Shown: in pieces, positions 1,063 through 22,231 of the stretch
Layout of the letters: every line of letters begins with the position of its first letter
How positions within the stretch are numbered: the first letter of the stretch is position 1
Assembly: GCA_902777605.1 (NCBI GenBank)
Contig: CACYUI010000022.1
Coordinates: 1-49,345, forward strand
Source: an uncultured bacterium
Lineage (GTDB): Bacteria; Cyanobacteriota; Vampirovibrionia; Gastranaerophilales; Gastranaerophilaceae
Direction of reading: 5' to 3'
DNA: 49,345 nucleotides
The notes under the pieces: model-generated
Told to the model about the DNA's origin: nothing
Seen by the model: the letters and a program-made list of their open reading frames with translations, nothing else
The model's database searches: none
Position numbers and translations under genes: made by a program

Positions 1063-3195
1063 TTATTGTCCAATAGGAGCACTTGTCATAGGGACAGGAG
1101 CAAAACTCGGCTTTGGAGCCTCTACACGCTGCTGCGGCACTTCTATTTTTTGAACTTCTTTTTTAGGAATCGGTGCAGCATGCTGTTGTATAAGATCTTT
1201 AATTACACTCTTTTGAGCTTCTATATTTTCTTCCTCTTCGTCATTTTTAGGTTGCTCTTTCTCAACGGAAGCTTTTTCGCCCTGTTTAATAACAGAAATA
1301 GAGGATGCTGAGAATGGATTCAATACAACCTCAGGATATTCAAAGTCTGCATTTCCGTACGGTTGAGTTGCAACTGTCATAACATCTTTCCAAATCAATG
1401 CCGGAATTGTACCACCTGTAACTCCGCCCATTTTTGAGTTATCATCATTACCTACCCATACACCGGTCACAACATCAGGAGTAAATCCTATAAAATACGC
1501 ATCTTTACTGTCATCCGTTGTACCTGTTTTACCTGCTGCCGGTTTTCCAATATTAGCTGCTCTACCAGTACCGTTTGTTATAACTGTTTTCATAATAGCA
1601 GTCATTGTAGCAGCTGTATTGATATTCAAAACTTTGCTGGTTCTTGCTTTTTTTGCTTCGTAAAGAATTGTACCTCTTGAAGATTCTACCCTTTCAATTG
1701 CATAAGGCTCAACTTTATATCCTCCATTTGCAAATACACCGAAAGCTCTTGTCATTTCATAAAGTTTAACACTGTGAGAACCTAAAGCTATAGTATAATC
1801 ATAAGGAATAGGTGTTGTTATCCCCATAACTCTTGCAAGTTGTATTACAGGTCTTACCCCAATTTCATCCATAAGCCTTGCCGCACACACATTTGATGAA
1901 ATCATAAGAGCTGTATACAAAGGTATTTTTCCTCTATATTTATTACCATAGTTTCTCGGAGTCCAATTACCCAATTTTACGGGCATATCTTCTATCATAT
2001 CGTTTGGAGAATAACCTTTTTCCACCGCTGCAGTATAAATGATAGGCTTAAACGCTGAACCGCATGGTCGTTGCGATTGCGTAACTCTATCATACTGGCT
2101 CTTTGTATAATCTTTACCACCTGCATATACTAAAATTCTGCCATCTATAGGATTAAAAGAAAATACGGCAGCTTGGTTTTTATCCTGCTTCATTCCCCAT
2201 GCATTAAGATTTTTAACAATGGCCTCATTTGCTTTAACTTGGGCATTATAATCAAGAGTAGTAACAACTTTTAAGCCGCCATTAACAATTTCATCCTCAG
2301 AAAATCCCAATTTTTGAAGTTCTTTCATAACATAATCACAGAAATATGGTGCTTTGTTTGTCGCATACATCAAAGGCATTGTAGAAAGAACGATAGGAGT
2401 TTCTTTTGCTTTTTTATAAGTTTCTTTATCAATGTATTTCATTTTATACATTCTCAAAAGCACTTGGTTTCTGCGTTTTTTTGCAAGTTCTTTATCGTTA
2501 TACGGAGAATAAACCGAAGGCGCCTGCGGAAGTCCGGCAATTAAAGCCATTTCGGGCAAAGTAAGCTGATTTAAGTTTTTATTAAAATAAATTTTTGCAG
2601 CTCCTTTAACACCATATGCTCCTGAGCCAAGATATACATTATTCATATACATTTCTAAAATCTTATCTTTAGAAATAGTTTTTTCTATCTGCGCTGCTAC
2701 TTGCAATTCTTTTATCTTACGAGTGAAAGTCTTTTCATTAGACAAGAAAAGGATTCTCGAAAGCTGTTGTGTAATTGTACTTGCACCTTGAACGACATGT
2801 CCTGCTAAAACATTTGCTACCATTGAGCGAGCCAAACCGAAAAGATCATATCCTTCATGAGAATAGAAGTTTTTATCTTCTGTTGCAATAAGTGCTTTAA
2901 CAAGCTGTTCCGGCACTTCTTTTAGTTCTACATTAGAATATGTATATGCAGCAAAGGTTTTAATAACCTGACCGTCACCTGCGCAAAATGTCGTAACAAT
3001 ATTTGGTTTTAAAGAGTTTAAATTTTTTATCGGCGGAAGAGAAACCAAGTATAATTTAAGTGCAATCAACCCTGCAAGCATAACACCTATACAAAAGACC
3101 AACACTCCGGTTATAAATCTCATAACAGGATTCTCTATTACAAGACGCTTGGAACTTCCTCTTTTTCTGTTTCGCGGAACATTATAGCTGCCCAT
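1063..3195 (-). CDS. Class A penicillin-binding protein (PBP1A-type)
   Basis: This bifunctional peptidoglycan synthase polymerises lipid II (GT51 domain) and cross-links stem peptides (transpeptidase domain) on the outer face of the inner membrane. A basic N-terminus is followed by one membrane anchor at about residues 26-50. The glycosyltransferase domain has the catalytic Glu in ATEDKNF (E106) and the conserved GASTITQQL. The transpeptidase domain shows the nucleophile in SAFK (S380, K383), SSN (433-435) and KTGT (K556). The 710-residue length is typical. The last 40 residues are Pro/Lys-rich and probably disordered. AAGGAG stands close before the ATG. The next gene on this strand is the PurH-like paralogue. 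The family is secure; whether to call it mrcA or ponA is arbitrary. Confidence 0.95.
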   Translation of the reverse strand: MGSYNVPRNRKRGSSKRLVIENPVMRFITGVLVFCIGVMLAGLIALKLYLVSLPPIKNLNSLKPNIVTTFCAGDGQVIKTFAAYTYSNVELKEVPEQLVKALIATEDKNFYSHEGYDLFGLARSMVANVLAGHVVQGASTITQQLSRILFLSNEKTFTRKIKELQVAAQIEKTISKDKILEMYMNNVYLGSGAYGVKGAAKIYFNKNLNQLTLPEMALIAGLPQAPSVYSPYNDKELAKKRRNQVLLRMYKMKYIDKETYKKAKETPIVLSTMPLMYATNKAPYFCDYVMKELQKLGFSEDEIVNGGLKVVTTLDYNAQVKANEAIVKNLNAWGMKQDKNQAAVFSFNPIDGRILVYAGGKDYTKSQYDRVTQSQRPCGSAFKPIIYTAAVEKGYSPNDMIEDMPVKLGNWTPRNYGNKYRGKIPLYTALMISSNVCAARLMDEIGVRPVIQLARVMGITTPIPYDYTIALGSHSVKLYEMTRAFGVFANGGYKVEPYAIERVESSRGTILYEAKKARTSKVLNINTAATMTAIMKTVITNGTGRAANIGKPAAGKTGTTDDSKDAYFIGFTPDVVTGVWVGNDDNSKMGGVTGGTIPALIWKDVMTVATQPYGNADFEYPEVVLNPFSASSISVIKQGEKASVEKEQPKNDEEEENIEAQKSVIKDLIQQHAAPIPKKEVQKIEVPQQRVEAPKPSFAPVPMTSAPIGQ

Positions 3196-3220
3196 CTCTA
3201 CTCCTTATCAATGCAGTAAA

Positions 3221-3249
3221 ACTGTAATATTTGTGTAGTATAATATCAA
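3221..3249 (-). promoter_or_regulatory. Putative sigma-70 promoter of the PBP1A gene
   Basis: Read on the minus strand, TTGATA (3249-3244) and TACAGT (3226-3221) are separated by 17 bases, upstream of the AAGGAG ribosome site of the PBP gene. The same 77-base divergent gap must also serve the plus-strand YkgJ-like gene, for which TATAAT boxes occur at 3239-3244 and 3250-3255 without a good -35. Confidence 0.45.
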
Positions 3250-3272
3250 TATAATTTTACCAAAGACATATT

Positions 3273-3695
3273 ATGATTGGGATAAATAATAAGCTAATGT
3301 TAAGTTTTTTGACAATTTTAAAAAATGAATTTTTATCATATTTTGTTCCTGAAAAAATGGAGTACAGAATAACGGGCAAGTGTTTAAAATGCGGCAAATG
3401 CTGCAGATATATGTACAGTTTTGATACATACACAACTACTGATTTTAAAATTATGCAATTTTTGTTTCCGTCATACAGAAGATTTTACATTCGAGGAAAA
3501 GACGAAGAAGGAAATCTCATATTTGCTTGCAAATATGTTACAGACGAAGGATTGTGTTCTGTTTACAACAAAAGGCTCAAAATGTGCAAAAAGTATCCTG
3601 CATCAAAAATCGGCTATCCCGGAAAACTTCATGAAGGGTGCGGATACAATATTGAAGACAAAAGTTTTGAAAGTTACTTAAAACAGGCACAATAA
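3273..3695 (+). CDS. YkgJ-family Cys-cluster (zinc/iron-chelating) protein
   Basis: A 140-residue protein with the YkgJ/UPF0153 signature CxxCxxCC (C37, C40, C43, C44) followed by single cysteines at 86, 95, 105 and 123, eight in all, as expected for the family thought to bind Zn or an Fe-S cluster. The first 25 residues are hydrophobic/basic and lie outside the family core. No Shine-Dalgarno is evident before the first ATG, so a start at the ATG at 3297 is possible. It diverges from the PBP gene and converges on mnmA with a gap of only 3 bases. The biochemical function of the family is not well defined. Confidence 0.8.
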   Translation: MIGINNKLMLSFLTILKNEFLSYFVPEKMEYRITGKCLKCGKCCRYMYSFDTYTTTDFKIMQFLFPSYRRFYIRGKDEEGNLIFACKYVTDEGLCSVYNKRLKMCKKYPASKIGYPGKLHEGCGYNIEDKSFESYLKQAQ

Positions 3696-3698
3696 ATA

Positions 3699-4781
3699 CT
3701 ATAAGACCTCAGAGATAACTCCTCCGCCCAAGACCAAATCGCCATCATAAAGAACTATTGATTGACCTTTTGCAATTGATTTTTGCATGTCATCAAATTT
3801 TACAATAATTTCTTGATTAACTATTTCTACACTAACTTCTGTAGGTTGTTGAGTTGAGCGAATTTTAGCTTGCGCCTTAAAAATATTTGTTTTTGGCTCA
3901 ATTATCCAATTTAGATTTGCAGCCTTCAAGGTATCCTTCATTGTTTTATCTTTTGGTCCAATAACAACTTCGTTTGTATCTTTTCTTAGTTCTATTACAT
4001 ACAACGGTTCGGTAGAAGATACCCCAACACCCTTTCTTTGACCGATTGTATAATTCCAGATACCTTTATGTTTACCCAAAACTTTACCGTTAACATCAAC
4101 AATATTACCCTCTTTATCTTCTACACCAAGAAGTTCATTATAATCTCCATAGTAAAAGTCTTGACTATCAGGTTTTTCAGCAACGGTAAGCCCGTTGGCT
4201 TTTGCTATTTCTCTGATTTCTTCTTTTGTTTTATCTCCAAGAGGCAAAATTATATTTGCCAGCTGTTCCTGTTTCAGTCTGTAAAGAAAATACGATTGAT
4301 CTTTCTTAGGATTCAAACCTCTTTTTAGTATATATCGTCCGTCTTTTCCTATAGTTACTGCAGCATAATGTCCTGTTGCAAATTTATCAAAGTCTATACC
4401 ATTAGCTTTAGCCAGTCTCGGAAGAACATCAAATTTTATAAGTGAATTACACCAAATACAAGGGTTTGGAGTGTTTCCACTTAAGTATTCTTTTTTAAAA
4501 TTATCCAAAACTATTTCTTCGTATTGTTTTGCACAATCAAAAACATAAAAAGGAATACCGATTTCTTCTGCTATTTTTCTGGCGCCTTCAATATCTTCCT
4601 TCTCATCAGGTCCAAAGCATGCACCATGTCTTTTAGGAAGTTTTTCGCTTAATTGAGCTTTTACACCTCTGTCACCCCATATAGCCATAGTTGCACCAAT
4701 TACTTCATGACCTTGTTGTTTTAAGAGTAGTGCCGTAACAGATGAGTCTACACCGCCTGACATTCCTACAAGAACCTTCAT
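3699..4781 (-). CDS. mnmA: tRNA 2-thiouridine synthase MnmA-type, variant cysteine set
   Basis: MnmA adenylates and thiolates U34 of tRNA Lys, Glu and Gln in the cytoplasm. The PP-loop SGGVDSS lies at residues 8-14. NPCIWCN carries a CxxC in place of the E. coli DxxC, and TIGQRKG and the C-terminal beta-barrel are present; the length (360) is normal. The second catalytic cysteine (C199 in E. coli, in the ICFI segment) is missing: the aligned segment reads SQDFYYGDY, and no cysteine occurs after the CxxC. Additional cysteines occur earlier (HGACFGPDE and VFDCAKQ). It starts one base after the nadA stop, so the two are almost certainly translationally coupled. Confidence 0.85.
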   Translation of the reverse strand: MKVLVGMSGGVDSSVTALLLKQQGHEVIGATMAIWGDRGVKAQLSEKLPKRHGACFGPDEKEDIEGARKIAEEIGIPFYVFDCAKQYEEIVLDNFKKEYLSGNTPNPCIWCNSLIKFDVLPRLAKANGIDFDKFATGHYAAVTIGKDGRYILKRGLNPKKDQSYFLYRLKQEQLANIILPLGDKTKEEIREIAKANGLTVAEKPDSQDFYYGDYNELLGVEDKEGNIVDVNGKVLGKHKGIWNYTIGQRKGVGVSSTEPLYVIELRKDTNEVVIGPKDKTMKDTLKAANLNWIIEPKTNIFKAQAKIRSTQQPTEVSVEIVNQEIIVKFDDMQKSIAKGQSIVLYDGDLVLGGGVISEVL

Positions 4782-18409: not shown

Positions 18410-21400
18410 ATGTTATTAAATTGTATTAAACCCAATTTTGGGCAAAAATTTTTAGTTGACAAATATATTAAGCTTATTTCAGAAGGAGTAAAACCGTCTG
18501 AAATACTGGTTCTTGTGCAAAATTCAACATTAAAAAAACAATTTATGGACATCGTTTTGGAAGAAATTTCTACTTGCGCAATTGAAAAATTAAATATTTT
18601 TTCTTTCTTTGCAATTGTTTACAATACACTTGTTGACAATTGGTGTCTTGTTGAAAATTTAATACCAACAGGAAAAACTCACATACTACCCAACCTTGTT
18701 GGGCTTGAAGTTTCGCAATTCTTATTAAAAGACATACTAAAAGAGGTCGAAGTCAAGGGTTATAATTCTAAAAAATCTTTACTCAACCAAATTTTCAGAA
18801 GATATTCTCTTATTGTACAGAATAATTTAAGCAGTGATGATATTAAGAGAAGAGCTGAAATTTTAAAGGAGCCTTTCTTCGAAGATACGGAAATTATTAT
18901 GAAAAAGCTTCTTTCTTTAACTTTAAAAAACAGAAGTTTAGATTATTTGAGACAGACTCTAATTTTTCAACATATATATAAACATACGGATTATTTTAAA
19001 AATATAAAATATCTTCTTTTAGATGATGCCGATGAAATGACTCCTGCATGTTTTGAGTTTATTTCACACTTAAAACCTCAGCTTAAAGATTGGTATATTT
19101 GTTTTGACTCACTCGGCTCAAGCAGGTGCGGATACCTAAGCGCCGACACTTCTATTGAATACAAATTGAAAAAACTGTTCGGAGAAGAAATTACAAATTC
19201 TGATGAAAAAATAAATCCTCAAACACTTAAAAACAGTGAAGTTATTTTCGGAAATGTTTTAGAAGAAAGGCATGAAAAATTAGAGAATTTTAGTTTAATA
19301 TCTCTATCTAAAAGAGCGGAAATACTGGATTACACAATTATAAAAATAAAAAAATTATTATCAGAAAATATTAAGCCGAAAGATATTGTAATAATAACTC
19401 CGCTTCAAGATGAAATGCTAAAATTTACGCTTGAAGAAAAACTGAATAAGCAATGCAGCCTTTTATTTTTATCAGGAAATGAAAAGCTGATTTCCAACCC
19501 GCTTGTAAAAGCGAGTTTAAACATTCTTAAACTCATGTTGGATATTGAAGTTAGCGAGATTGACTTAAGAAGTATAATATCAGATTACATAGGAATTCCT
19601 CTAAAATATTCAAAAGAAATCATTGAGTCATATAAAAATTCTCAAAAACTACCTGCAAAAATTTCCAATTACGATGAAAAATATCAAAAATTTTATTCTG
19701 CATTTTCTGAAATAAAAGATGCTGATATGAAACTTTCGAGAAAAGTTTTTGAAATGTTTTACCGAGTAGTTGAATATACAGACGAAACAAAGATTAATAA
19801 ATTTAATTTCTTTATAAAACAGCTCAGGGATTTTGAAAATGTTTTAGGCGCTGAAACGGTAATAGAGCGCGCAAAAGAAATTATTACTCAATTTGAAAAT
19901 TCAATTATTGCAGAAAACCCGAGTTCAACGCTTGAAATTACGGAAAATGATTTAATAATAGCGACTCCGCAAAAAATAATAGATAATAAAATAACTTCTA
20001 AATACCAGTTTTGGCTTGATGTTTCACATTCAGACTGGGTAAAAACAGATACGGGACCACTATATAACGCTTGGGTAATGCAGGCTGATTGGACAAAAGA
20101 TGAGTATACGGTAGAAGATGATATTTTCTTATCAAAACAAAAAACTGCAAGAATTTTAAGGAAATTACTACTTTTATCACAAGGTGAAATTTGGGCGCTA
20201 TCCAGTCTTTTCGATCCATCGGGAGTAGAAAATCTCGGTGGTATAGAAGAGTATCTTGCAGGTAAAAATGAAACAGAACAAGATATTAAACCCGCTTTTC
20301 ATATCATTCCAAGAGATGACCAAAAACCTGTTTTAGATTATCAAAAAGGCTCTATGGCAATATCTGCTGTCCCAGGAGCAGGTAAAACAACAATATTATT
20401 AGCGCTCATAGTAAAACTTATGAATAGGGGAGTTAACCCCAATAATATTTATGTACTCACATACATGGATTCTGCCGCAAGAAACTTTAGGGAAAGAATA
20501 AAGAACATGTGTCCTAATTCCCTGCAAATGCCGAACATTAGTACAATCCACGGGCTTGCCCTCAAAATACTTAAAGAAAATTCAAATTTTGAACGGCTTA
20601 ATTTAAGTTCGGATTTTGAGATTTGCGATGACACTCAGAGAATGAGAATTATAAGAAATATTTCCGGCAAAAATACAAAAACAGAGCTTGAAGAATTTGA
20701 CAGAGCAATTTCTGTACTAAAGCTTCAAGAGGGAAATATTGATACGCCATCAGGCGACAAAAAAACTGAAAAATTTAAAACTTTCTATAAACAATATCAA
20801 GAACAATTGAGAGAATTTAATATGATAGATTACGATGATATTCTTATTTTGTCGGTAAAACTTCTTGAAAACAATCATGATATTTTAAAATATTATCAAG
20901 AAATTTGTGAATATATTATCGAAGACGAAGCACAGGATTCATCAGGTGTTCAGCAAAGGCTCATAGGATTGTTGAGCGGAAAGCATAAAAACCTTATCAG
21001 GTGCGGAGATATAAATCAGGCTATTACAACAACTTTTTCTAACGCAGATGTGGAAGGGTTCAGAAACTTTATAAAAACTGCTGACAAAACAGTTGAGATG
21101 AACCGCTCTCAAAGATGCACGCAAGATGTTATGAATTTGGCAAACAAGCTTGTTGATTGGGGTAGCGAATTATTACCCAAAGCTTTCTATAAAATACACA
21201 TGAACGGAGTTGAAGGAAAGAATCCTGTTCAGAACAATGCAATTTTTTCAAGAGTTTTTGAAAATACCTTTGCAGAGCGTAACTATATATTAAAAGAGAT
21301 AAAAAATATTCTGACCAAAAATAAAGATGCAACTGTCGGAATACTTTTGAGAAACAATTTTCAAGTTGCATCTTGGACAAGTTTTATAAACGATGCAGGG

Positions 21401-22231
21401 CTAAAAACAATTACAAGAAGTGAATCACTCGGTCAAAAAGCAGTGTTTAACACTATTTTTTCAATACTAAAATTTATAAAAACTCCGTTTGATAACGAAA
21501 TTTTGGCGCAAGCTTATGAAACACTTTCCGAATTTGGGTTCTACAAGCCAAGACTTCAAACGGAAATACGAGCCTGCGAAACTCCTTTTATAGAAAAAGA
21601 CGGCGATGATATTGAATCATCTGAGCTGTCACAATTTTTATGGGATATGCAATATTGGTTGAATTCCTCAACACTTCCTCTTGAAGAGCTTGTAATAAAA
21701 ATAGGTCTTTTCTATTACACAAGCGACATTGAGAAGTCCAATGTATATTTAATAGCCATCTTAGTCAAAAGATTAAACAGTTCAAACGATTTTAATATCA
21801 CTCTTGAAAGACTCGACACACTCGCTAAAAAGCCGTCATTAAGCGGTTTTAAGTTCTTCTCTGAAGAAGAGGACAAGGATGCTGCAAAGGGAAAAGTTCA
21901 AATTATGACTCTTCACAAATCTAAGGGCGATGAATTTGATTATGTATTCCTGCCTGAAATGACGGAAAAATCACTCTCAATAGATGTTAATCAAGCAAAA
22001 CTGAAATCTTCTTCTATCTTTATGGAGGAAGTAAAGTCATTTAACCCGAATTACAAAAAGAAAACGGAATTGGAGTTGAAAGAATTTAATTCGGAAGAAT
22101 CTTTGAGGTTATTATATGTTGCTATAACAAGGGCTCAGAAAAAGTTATACATAACAACTTCTTCTAAAACAAAAGCCTTTGGAAAAGAAGTCACTCAAGA
22201 GCCGAGCATTATTTTTGAGTATGTTTTATAA
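18410..22231 (+). CDS. Double-module UvrD/Rep-like (SF1) helicase fusion
   Basis: The C-terminal half (about 635-1273) is an intact SF1A helicase: motif I AVPGAGKTT (K659), Ia YVLTYMDSAA, II EDEAQDSS (D839, E840), III/IV with NRSQRC, V MTLHKSKGDEFDYVFLP (1166 on) and VI YVAITRA (R1241). The N-terminal half looks like a decayed copy of the same fold: NFGQKF in the P-loop position, ILVLVQNST (Ia), LLLDDADEMTP (II, D205-E209) and a domain 2-like KPKDIVIITPLQDEM. The layout recalls AddB (dead helicase) joined to AddA, but no nuclease domain or Fe-S cysteine set is seen at the end. It presumably acts in recombination or repair. A ribosome site, AAGGAG, lies only one base from the ATG, and a terminator follows directly. 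Confidence 0.85.
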   Translation: MLLNCIKPNFGQKFLVDKYIKLISEGVKPSEILVLVQNSTLKKQFMDIVLEEISTCAIEKLNIFSFFAIVYNTLVDNWCLVENLIPTGKTHILPNLVGLEVSQFLLKDILKEVEVKGYNSKKSLLNQIFRRYSLIVQNNLSSDDIKRRAEILKEPFFEDTEIIMKKLLSLTLKNRSLDYLRQTLIFQHIYKHTDYFKNIKYLLLDDADEMTPACFEFISHLKPQLKDWYICFDSLGSSRCGYLSADTSIEYKLKKLFGEEITNSDEKINPQTLKNSEVIFGNVLEERHEKLENFSLISLSKRAEILDYTIIKIKKLLSENIKPKDIVIITPLQDEMLKFTLEEKLNKQCSLLFLSGNEKLISNPLVKASLNILKLMLDIEVSEIDLRSIISDYIGIPLKYSKEIIESYKNSQKLPAKISNYDEKYQKFYSAFSEIKDADMKLSRKVFEMFYRVVEYTDETKINKFNFFIKQLRDFENVLGAETVIERAKEIITQFENSIIAENPSSTLEITENDLIIATPQKIIDNKITSKYQFWLDVSHSDWVKTDTGPLYNAWVMQADWTKDEYTVEDDIFLSKQKTARILRKLLLLSQGEIWALSSLFDPSGVENLGGIEEYLAGKNETEQDIKPAFHIIPRDDQKPVLDYQKGSMAISAVPGAGKTTILLALIVKLMNRGVNPNNIYVLTYMDSAARNFRERIKNMCPNSLQMPNISTIHGLALKILKENSNFERLNLSSDFEICDDTQRMRIIRNISGKNTKTELEEFDRAISVLKLQEGNIDTPSGDKKTEKFKTFYKQYQEQLREFNMIDYDDILILSVKLLENNHDILKYYQEICEYIIEDEAQDSSGVQQRLIGLLSGKHKNLIRCGDINQAITTTFSNADVEGFRNFIKTADKTVEMNRSQRCTQDVMNLANKLVDWGSELLPKAFYKIHMNGVEGKNPVQNNAIFSRVFENTFAERNYILKEIKNILTKNKDATVGILLRNNFQVASWTSFINDAGLKTITRSESLGQKAVFNTIFSILKFIKTPFDNEILAQAYETLSEFGFYKPRLQTEIRACETPFIEKDGDDIESSELSQFLWDMQYWLNSSTLPLEELVIKIGLFYYTSDIEKSNVYLIAILVKRLNSSNDFNITLERLDTLAKKPSLSGFKFFSEEEDKDAAKGKVQIMTLHKSKGDEFDYVFLPEMTEKSLSIDVNQAKLKSSSIFMEEVKSFNPNYKKKTELELKEFNSEESLRLLYVAITRAQKKLYITTSSKTKAFGKEVTQEPSIIFEYVL

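Follow-up and report, generated by a model that had tools for sequence, protein, structure and literature searches.

What does a bacterium gain from a protein in which one helicase, seemingly dead, is joined to a second that is intact? The question is raised by a gene in a 49,345-nucleotide stretch of DNA (the window) from an uncultured member of the Gastranaerophilales, an order of the Cyanobacteriota. A single open reading frame (ORF), which runs from an ATG at 18410 to a stop at 22231 on the + strand, encodes 1273 amino acids (aa) comprising two superfamily 1A (SF1A) helicases in tandem. The first (residues ~1-630, the N-half) is degenerate, and the second (residues ~635-1273, the C-half) has intact motifs. 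This protein probably represents the fused inactive and motor subunits of a three-component helicase-nuclease that is found across the phylum. The system would be AddAB- and RecBCD-like in processing the ends of double-strand breaks while being a member of neither.

An earlier sequence-only reading of the window described the fusion as an uncommon machine. That description does not hold, because nearly all members of the order have the fused module, and its counterparts occur as separate genes throughout Cyanobacteriia. The feature is ordinary within the phylum and apparently undescribed as a system; no account of the trio was found in the literature searched, which consisted of open-licence PMC papers. 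The window's genome (G000) is an assembly of 1.99 Mb in 43 contigs and is 97.8% complete. Handles beginning with G, L, C and f denote genomes, loci, contigs and families, respectively.

Two helicase modules in one polypeptide

The 1273-aa protein has full-length homologues both within the window's genus and in further families of its order, there with 35-41% identity. Because they are conserved across both, a chance origin of the tandem layout is excluded. In the C-half, Pfam matches PF00580 at residues 637-890 (1e-49), followed by UvrD_C and UvrD_C_2 up to residue 1252. The chain stops after UvrD_C_2, and Pfam detects no nuclease family at its C-terminal end. Since the C-halves of all 37 diverse fused proteins keep both GxGKT and EDEAQD, the motor is almost certainly active. 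Its AlphaFold model (mean predicted local distance difference test score, pLDDT, 71.7, and below 40 in the P-loop region) is weaker than that of the N-half and served only to assign the fold class, for which it supports SF1A (UvrD-like).

The motor scores 189 bits against PcrA, versus 96.9 bits against addA_Gpos (cut-off 707.65) and 66.7 bits against recB (cut-off 696). In a 43-row tree made with a quick method, in which L262 and L212 sit on long branches, the fused C-halves and the stand-alone motors of cyanobacteria lie together on one side of a branch with a Shimodaira-Hasegawa-like approximate likelihood ratio test (SH-aLRT) value of 99. PcrA, the UvrD-Cas4 fusions and five AddA proteins from f8 and f13 fall on the other side.

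The N-half of the window protein has a weak Pfam match, to AAA_12 at residues 263-348 (27.7 bits; cut-off, 27), and 12 of the 17 N-halves of relatives from the genus and order match PF00580 (best 1.8e-9). When profiles of the two halves are compared by hhalign, 587 columns align with a probability of 98.8; four reversed profiles give 0.1-1.5 and an unrelated profile 0.1. An AlphaFold model of residues 1-640, built from 38 sequences (pLDDT 73.7), has a UvrD-type fold. A fold search of the PDB (VIA) aligns it with Rep, UvrD and PcrA over its whole length at Z 21-23 (Rep 1uaa, 23.3; PcrA 3pjr, 22.2). AdnA/B are also among the matches (AdnB 6ppu, Z 19.0 over 558 residues), as are AddB (4cej, Z 17.9 over 561 residues) and HelD (Z 16.5). 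Only the fold search gave matches; a search of PDB sequences with the N-half profile returned nothing. AddB is matched by hhalign as well (probability 98.3, 354 columns), and the ADDB_N model (PF21445) matches none of 17 N-halves, while it does match a true AddB from f8. The model thus points to an SF1A fold for which AddB is one among several good matches and not the best.

At the P-loop of the N-half, other families can retain intact sequences (GPLKSGKT, GSSGSGKT, GPLGSGKT), and a pattern test for GxxxxGK[ST] is positive for 14 of the 37 diverse fused proteins and for none of 38 from the window's genus. At motif II, DExQD or DExHD is present in none of the 37 diverse proteins, and D208 and E209 are invariant among 22 diverse N-halves. 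The N-half is an old, conserved SF1 module whose P-loop is intact in sister families and has been lost in the window's genus. Because no member tested has DExQ and the genus lacks the P-loop, the N-half is very probably unable to hydrolyse ATP. The likely order of decay is that catalysis was lost first and the P-loop afterwards in some lineages, including that of the window. Such losses argue that nucleotide binding is dispensable there, and across the family the P-loop of an inactive helicase can be followed through natural stages of decay.

Much of what the sequence-only reading said of the polypeptide is borne out. Its central proposal, an inactive SF1 module ahead of an active SF1 motor, is confirmed by Pfam, hhalign, the fold search and the motif states. 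By alignment, it was correct to take NFGQKF for the P-loop and LLLDDADEMTP for motif II, as these occupy the sites where relatives carry GPLKSGKT and VDDxDE. It also rightly credited the C-half with all UvrD-type motifs, including intact Walker A, motif II and motif VI. Judged as SF1A helicases, the C-half has both the fold and the motifs, and the N-half has the fold and lacks the catalytic motifs. The reading had named an N-terminal fold unrelated to SF1, or a nuclease revealed at the end, as outcomes that would count against it; the predicted fold is SF1 and Pfam finds no C-terminal nuclease. Its likening of the halves to AddB and AddA survives for the layout, which recalls that pair, and fails for the parts: the motor is not AddA by the tree, and ADDB_N is unmatched.

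A nuclease in trans and an unfused form

The absence of a nuclease, noted in the sequence-only reading, is true of the polypeptide by Pfam and not of the genome. On another contig, G000 encodes a Cas4/AddB-like PD-(D/E)XK protein of 209 aa (C10:26266-26898) that scores above the PF12705 cut-off. The genome search that the reading had proposed yields a separate nuclease. It yields no match to RecC (PF04257), none to AddB, and none of RecB/AddA type other than PcrA and the 1273-aa protein itself. Among relatives, a search with PF12705 finds a stand-alone PD-(D/E)XK protein of 200-230 aa in nearly all, and at least one PF12705 match is present in 36 of 37 genomes.

The separate Cas4/AddB-like nuclease ranges from 200 to 340 aa and satisfies PDDEXK_1 (PF12705) with a full catalytic set: H, D, D-x-K and Q-x3-Y are invariant in 24 of 24 rows. 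Most rows also have four cysteines in the AddB/Cas4 arrangement, and some cyanobacterial rows have it only in part. Against the cas4 model TIGR00372 the nuclease scores 51.6 bits, under the cut-off of 65. The best PDB match of its profile is the AdnB nuclease (1.8e-9). The profile also matches weakly PDB entries 9iac and 9iab, which are PD-(D/E)XK proteins (at least 9iac is cyanobacterial by name). These were considered as the same nuclease and set aside when phmmer searches from two cyanobacterial orthologues did not retrieve them; they probably belong to a paralogous Cas4-like family.

Gene order ties the nuclease to the fused protein. In 30 of 45 genomes, the nuclease gene lies directly 3' of the fused gene on the same strand, mostly with an overlap of 4-20 nucleotides (nt). 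The 45 are those in which the sequence downstream of the fused gene extends for 495 nt or more; L112, L119 and L128, which fall short of this, are left out, and L028 duplicates L185. Adjacent pairs are found in families f1, f3, f4, f7, f9 and f15 and, when a single f1 genome was taken from each genus (L167-L183), in 13 of 17. G035 adds one case to the 30.

A different arrangement is seen outside the window's class. In Cyanobacteriia (this and Vampirovibrionia are what we take to be the class names of the genomes compared), the N-half profile matches a stand-alone ORF of ~650-750 aa. Four copies of this dead helicase were scanned, and none has a Pfam or NCBIfam match above cut-off. In G236 and G256, dead helicase, motor and nuclease are three consecutive overlapping genes, and the same order is found on C269 of G260 (14-1507, 1567-3681 and 3741-4325, respectively). 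The motor adjoins the nuclease in G250 and G241, and in other genomes, such as G325 and G466, the three parts are dispersed. The copy in G325 (L245:7020-9107) consists of two abutting ORFs of 334 and 361 aa, either a frame break or a split.

In each of the 16 Cyanobacteriia genomes where the dead helicase was located, the motor is matched far more strongly than at the PcrA level, with E values from 1e-199 to ~1e-60. The assignment is weaker in G264 (5.5e-61) and G248 (4.9e-60), where other UvrD paralogues score in the same range. In four genomes with RecC, the motor search gives only PcrA-level matches (1e-29 to 1e-32). The nuclease is present in 21 of 21 dead-helicase-positive Cyanobacteriia genomes of the set and in 0 of the 4 with RecC. 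Because Cyanobacteriia have three separate genes, the fusion looks derived. As a fusion in gut and rumen Gastranaerophilales, it is a Rosetta stone that links three scattered cyanobacterial genes.

Co-occurrence was counted in one draw of 386 genomes from the phylum, 203 outside the window's class and 183 inside. Thresholds, set after the score gaps had been seen, were E <= 1e-9 for the dead helicase, and 1e-10 (Cyanobacteriia) or 1e-20 (Vampirovibrionia) for the nuclease. Outside the class, 136 genomes have both dead helicase and nuclease, 2 and 2 have one alone, and 63 have neither. RecC (PF04257) is found in 62 of the 203, of which 57, all in family f41, lack the dead helicase and 5 have it; RecC and dead helicase are both missing from 8. 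Family f41, probably the picocyanobacteria, may reflect a single replacement event. Within the class, the fused N-half is detected in 171 of 183 genomes and the nuclease in 159 of those 171, and in the other 12 genomes neither the N-half nor, at its threshold, the nuclease is detected. Fisher p-values for these counts are meaningless as probabilities because relatedness is ignored.

The features of the fused gene are collected in Table 1. Its neighbors in the window encode CoaBC, NIF3, UbiA, a transglycosylase and FlgF/FlgG. In G008 the fused gene (C40:9528-13324) is read as two overlapping frames near residue 940, through an assembly error or a frameshift. In some relatives, 40-420 aa are inserted in frame into the dead module after residue 262. 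Several of these inserts enclose a complete DUF559 (PF04480) endonuclease-like domain between translated repeats (PLPQGAGE / SPLVGESKS...), and those in L018, L052 and L060 are of repeats only. An intein is rejected, as what is inserted consists of repeats that are translated, in some cases together with DUF559. The inserts look like a mobile nuclease-repeat element that landed, in at least two genera, in the reading frame at a single permissive site. A seemingly similar repeat-like insert (LTPQPLGEGA...) precedes the GGRLD motif in the separate nuclease of G136 (L129:5495-6196).

Table 1. Features of the fused gene (window positions) and DUF559 inserts in relatives (locus positions)
Feature	Position	Strand
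Fused inactive SF1 module and active SF1 motor, 1273 aa	18410..22231	+
N-terminal inactive SF1A helicase module, residues ~1-628	18410..20293	+
Degenerate P-loop NFGQKF	18434..18451	+
Degenerate motif II LLLDDADEMTP	19013..19045	+
Motif III counterpart D-x2-G-x2-R-x-G-Y-L	19106..19144	+
Variable linker, residues 262-272, no insert in window	19193..19225	+
Domain-2 strand ITPLQDE, motif IV region	19394..19414	+
IATPQKIID, putative motif V counterpart	19958..19984	+
C-terminal active SF1A motor, residues ~629-1273	20294..22231	+
Intact Walker A SAVPGAGKTT	20363..20392	+
Intact motif II IEDEAQDSS	20918..20944	+
Intact motif VI RLLYVAITRA	22106..22135	+
DUF559 insert at linker	L059:988-1848	
DUF559 insert at linker	L061:8811-9644	
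DUF559 insert at linker	L080:5414-6004	
DUF559 insert at linker	L129:1852-2409	
Further relatives with DUF559 inserts at linker (L063, L016/L056, L017/L057, L074)		

Mechanism and alternatives

The likely mechanism follows the division of labor in known end-processing enzymes. The C-half, a 3'-5' SF1A motor, would unwind a duplex end by pulling the 3' strand. The dead N-half would hold the end or scan the opposite strand, like AddB and RecC, and cleavage of the unwound strands by the solo nuclease would then provide RecA with a 3' tail. The trio may form a physical complex, carry out resection and be subject to Chi-like regulation. With somewhat less assurance than for the window protein, we favor the view that RecBCD, AddAB and AdnAB are joined by the trio as a fourth class of bacterial helicase-nuclease for double-strand breaks. 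The trio would be ancestral to the Cyanobacteriota, with two of its three parts fused in Vampirovibrionia, and would have given way to RecBCD in the RecC clade.

Such a system would fill a gap. Excerpts of a 2016 comparative survey (PMC5101192) describe recBCD as poorly conserved in cyanobacteria, with recC only in marine Prochlorococcus and Synechococcus and missing from Synechocystis PCC6803, Nostoc PCC7120, and Synechococcus PCC7942 and PCC7002. Known presynaptic systems are missing from many genomes, according to part of another report (PMC1193525), and an excerpt on Synechocystis mentions little research on double-strand break repair (PMC11063404). For the missing DNA-end processor of most cyanobacteria, the trio supplies a testable candidate. 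If true, it would explain how they resect breaks without RecBCD or AddAB, a matter relevant to transformation, genome engineering and radiation resistance.

Several observations weigh against the proposed three-component system. The N-half fits Rep/UvrD no worse than AddB (Z 21-23 against 17.9 over 561 residues), and its hhalign match to AddB spans 354 columns only. The nuclease lies apart from the fused gene in 15 of the 45 genomes and in all 44 loci like those of the window's genus with at least 700 nt downstream (0/44 adjacent); in the window's genus it has moved away from the fused gene. The four-Cys cluster of the nuclease, which would be a 4Fe-4S cluster of the AddB/Cas4 type, is a prediction, and the f1 nucleases L123, L125, L126 and L127 (in G201, G205, G199 and G224) lack the Cys ligands. 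In these, the N-terminal and C-terminal ligands are gone together and the catalytic residues are retained, which suggests loss of the metal cluster. The exclusivity with RecC comes almost entirely from one clade (57 of 62 are f41), and five genomes hold both. Most of the 138 dead-helicase matches in Cyanobacteriia are calls at profile level. Finally, of the 171 Vampirovibrionia genomes that encode the fused protein, 12 gave no match to the nuclease at E <= 1e-20: two in g29, nine in g33 and one in g94. G215, G219, G197 and G222 are examples of genomes that keep the helicase in this way, and another nuclease may have taken over in them.

These same 12 genomes are among the grounds for a reading in which the protein is a UvrD-type accessory helicase, acting at replication forks, in transcription or in a HelD-like way, with a regulatory dead domain and a nuclease that is a coincidental neighbor. 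The UvrD/PcrA-like motor would fit such a role, as would an N-half whose fold is nearest to Rep/UvrD and also matches HelD (Z 16.5). We consider it unlikely, because coincidence would have to account for the 4-20 nt by which the nuclease gene overlaps that of the helicase in most adjacent pairs from six families, for the three-gene operons of Cyanobacteriia, and for the near-perfect co-occurrence of dead helicase and nuclease.

Descent from AddAB by rearrangement is quite unlikely. In this scenario, the addB nuclease split off to its own gene and addB was joined to an addA that had shed its own nuclease. The functional parts are the same, the nuclease has the AddB/Cas4 Cys pattern, and the N-half aligns with AddB by hhalign (98.3) and by model (561 residues, Z 17.9). 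The motor, however, is separated from the five AddA proteins of f8 and f13 (SH-aLRT 99) and scores 189 bits as PcrA against 97 as AddA, ADDB_N is unmatched in the N-halves, and the fusion looks derived from the three genes of Cyanobacteriia. Moreover, the sister families f8 and f13 retain a classical addB-addA operon: five of their genomes, of the same class as the window's, have the two genes adjacent, and one pair is backed by Pfam and NCBIfam. Because these families keep the operon, AddAB and the dead-helicase system are distinct lineages in one class. In G092 (f15), which also has the fused gene, L209:8200-13895 encodes an 817-aa PDDEXK_1 protein with no detectable helicase domain, then a UvrD-type motor; this second pair is an AddAB-like system.

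A role in anti-phage defence, as for GajB or the UvrD-Cas4 fusions, is very improbable: the PADLOC models GajB, RTasHel and Cas4 do match, but as generic UvrD/Cas4, and the module is near-universal in the order, tracks taxonomy rather than being patchy, has no defence genes as neighbors in the window, and is placed apart from true UvrD-Cas4 fusions in the tree.

Comparison with known systems

The proposed helicase-nuclease most resembles AddAB/RexAB in its parts, since B. subtilis AddB-AddA likewise combines one inactive and one active SF1A helicase with a RecB-family nuclease. That AddB carries an inactive helicase is stated in an excerpt of PMC5443536. In contrast to AddAB, the helicases here are fused (Vampirovibrionia) or separate, neither bears a nuclease, a single small nuclease is supplied in trans, and the motor forms a separate clade in the tree. 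Membership in AddAB is rejected on the lack of a C-terminal nuclease on the motor or N-half, the addA_Gpos score under cut-off, the unmatched ADDB_N and the position in the tree.

RecBCD shares an active motor, an inactive helicase-like subunit, which is RecC, and one nuclease. Unlike RecBCD, the nuclease here is unfused, and the two systems have nearly exclusive distributions, mostly via one clade. Membership is rejected because G000 has no PF04257 match, recB scores under its cut-off and no nuclease is fused. AdnAB also has two SF1A modules, and its AdnB nuclease is the top PDB match of the nuclease profile. Both Adn subunits bear C-terminal nucleases, and membership, with motor and nuclease on each subunit, is rejected for a polypeptide that has no nuclease.

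UvrD-Cas4 fusions have been linked to defence, and a Clostridiales operon of uvrD and a cas4-like gene has been proposed to act in repair (PMC5704561, in excerpt). Both couple a UvrD-family motor to a PF12705 nuclease, as here; no dead helicase is described in that excerpt. Membership is rejected, as the nuclease here is unfused and the fusions lie beyond the SH-aLRT 99 branch; true UvrD-Cas4 fusions co-exist with the fused dead helicase and motor in some genomes. Like Cas4, the nuclease matches cas4 models, although below cut-off, and differs in being dedicated to helicase genes. By membership the system is not AddAB, RecBCD or AdnAB, yet it has the same functional parts.

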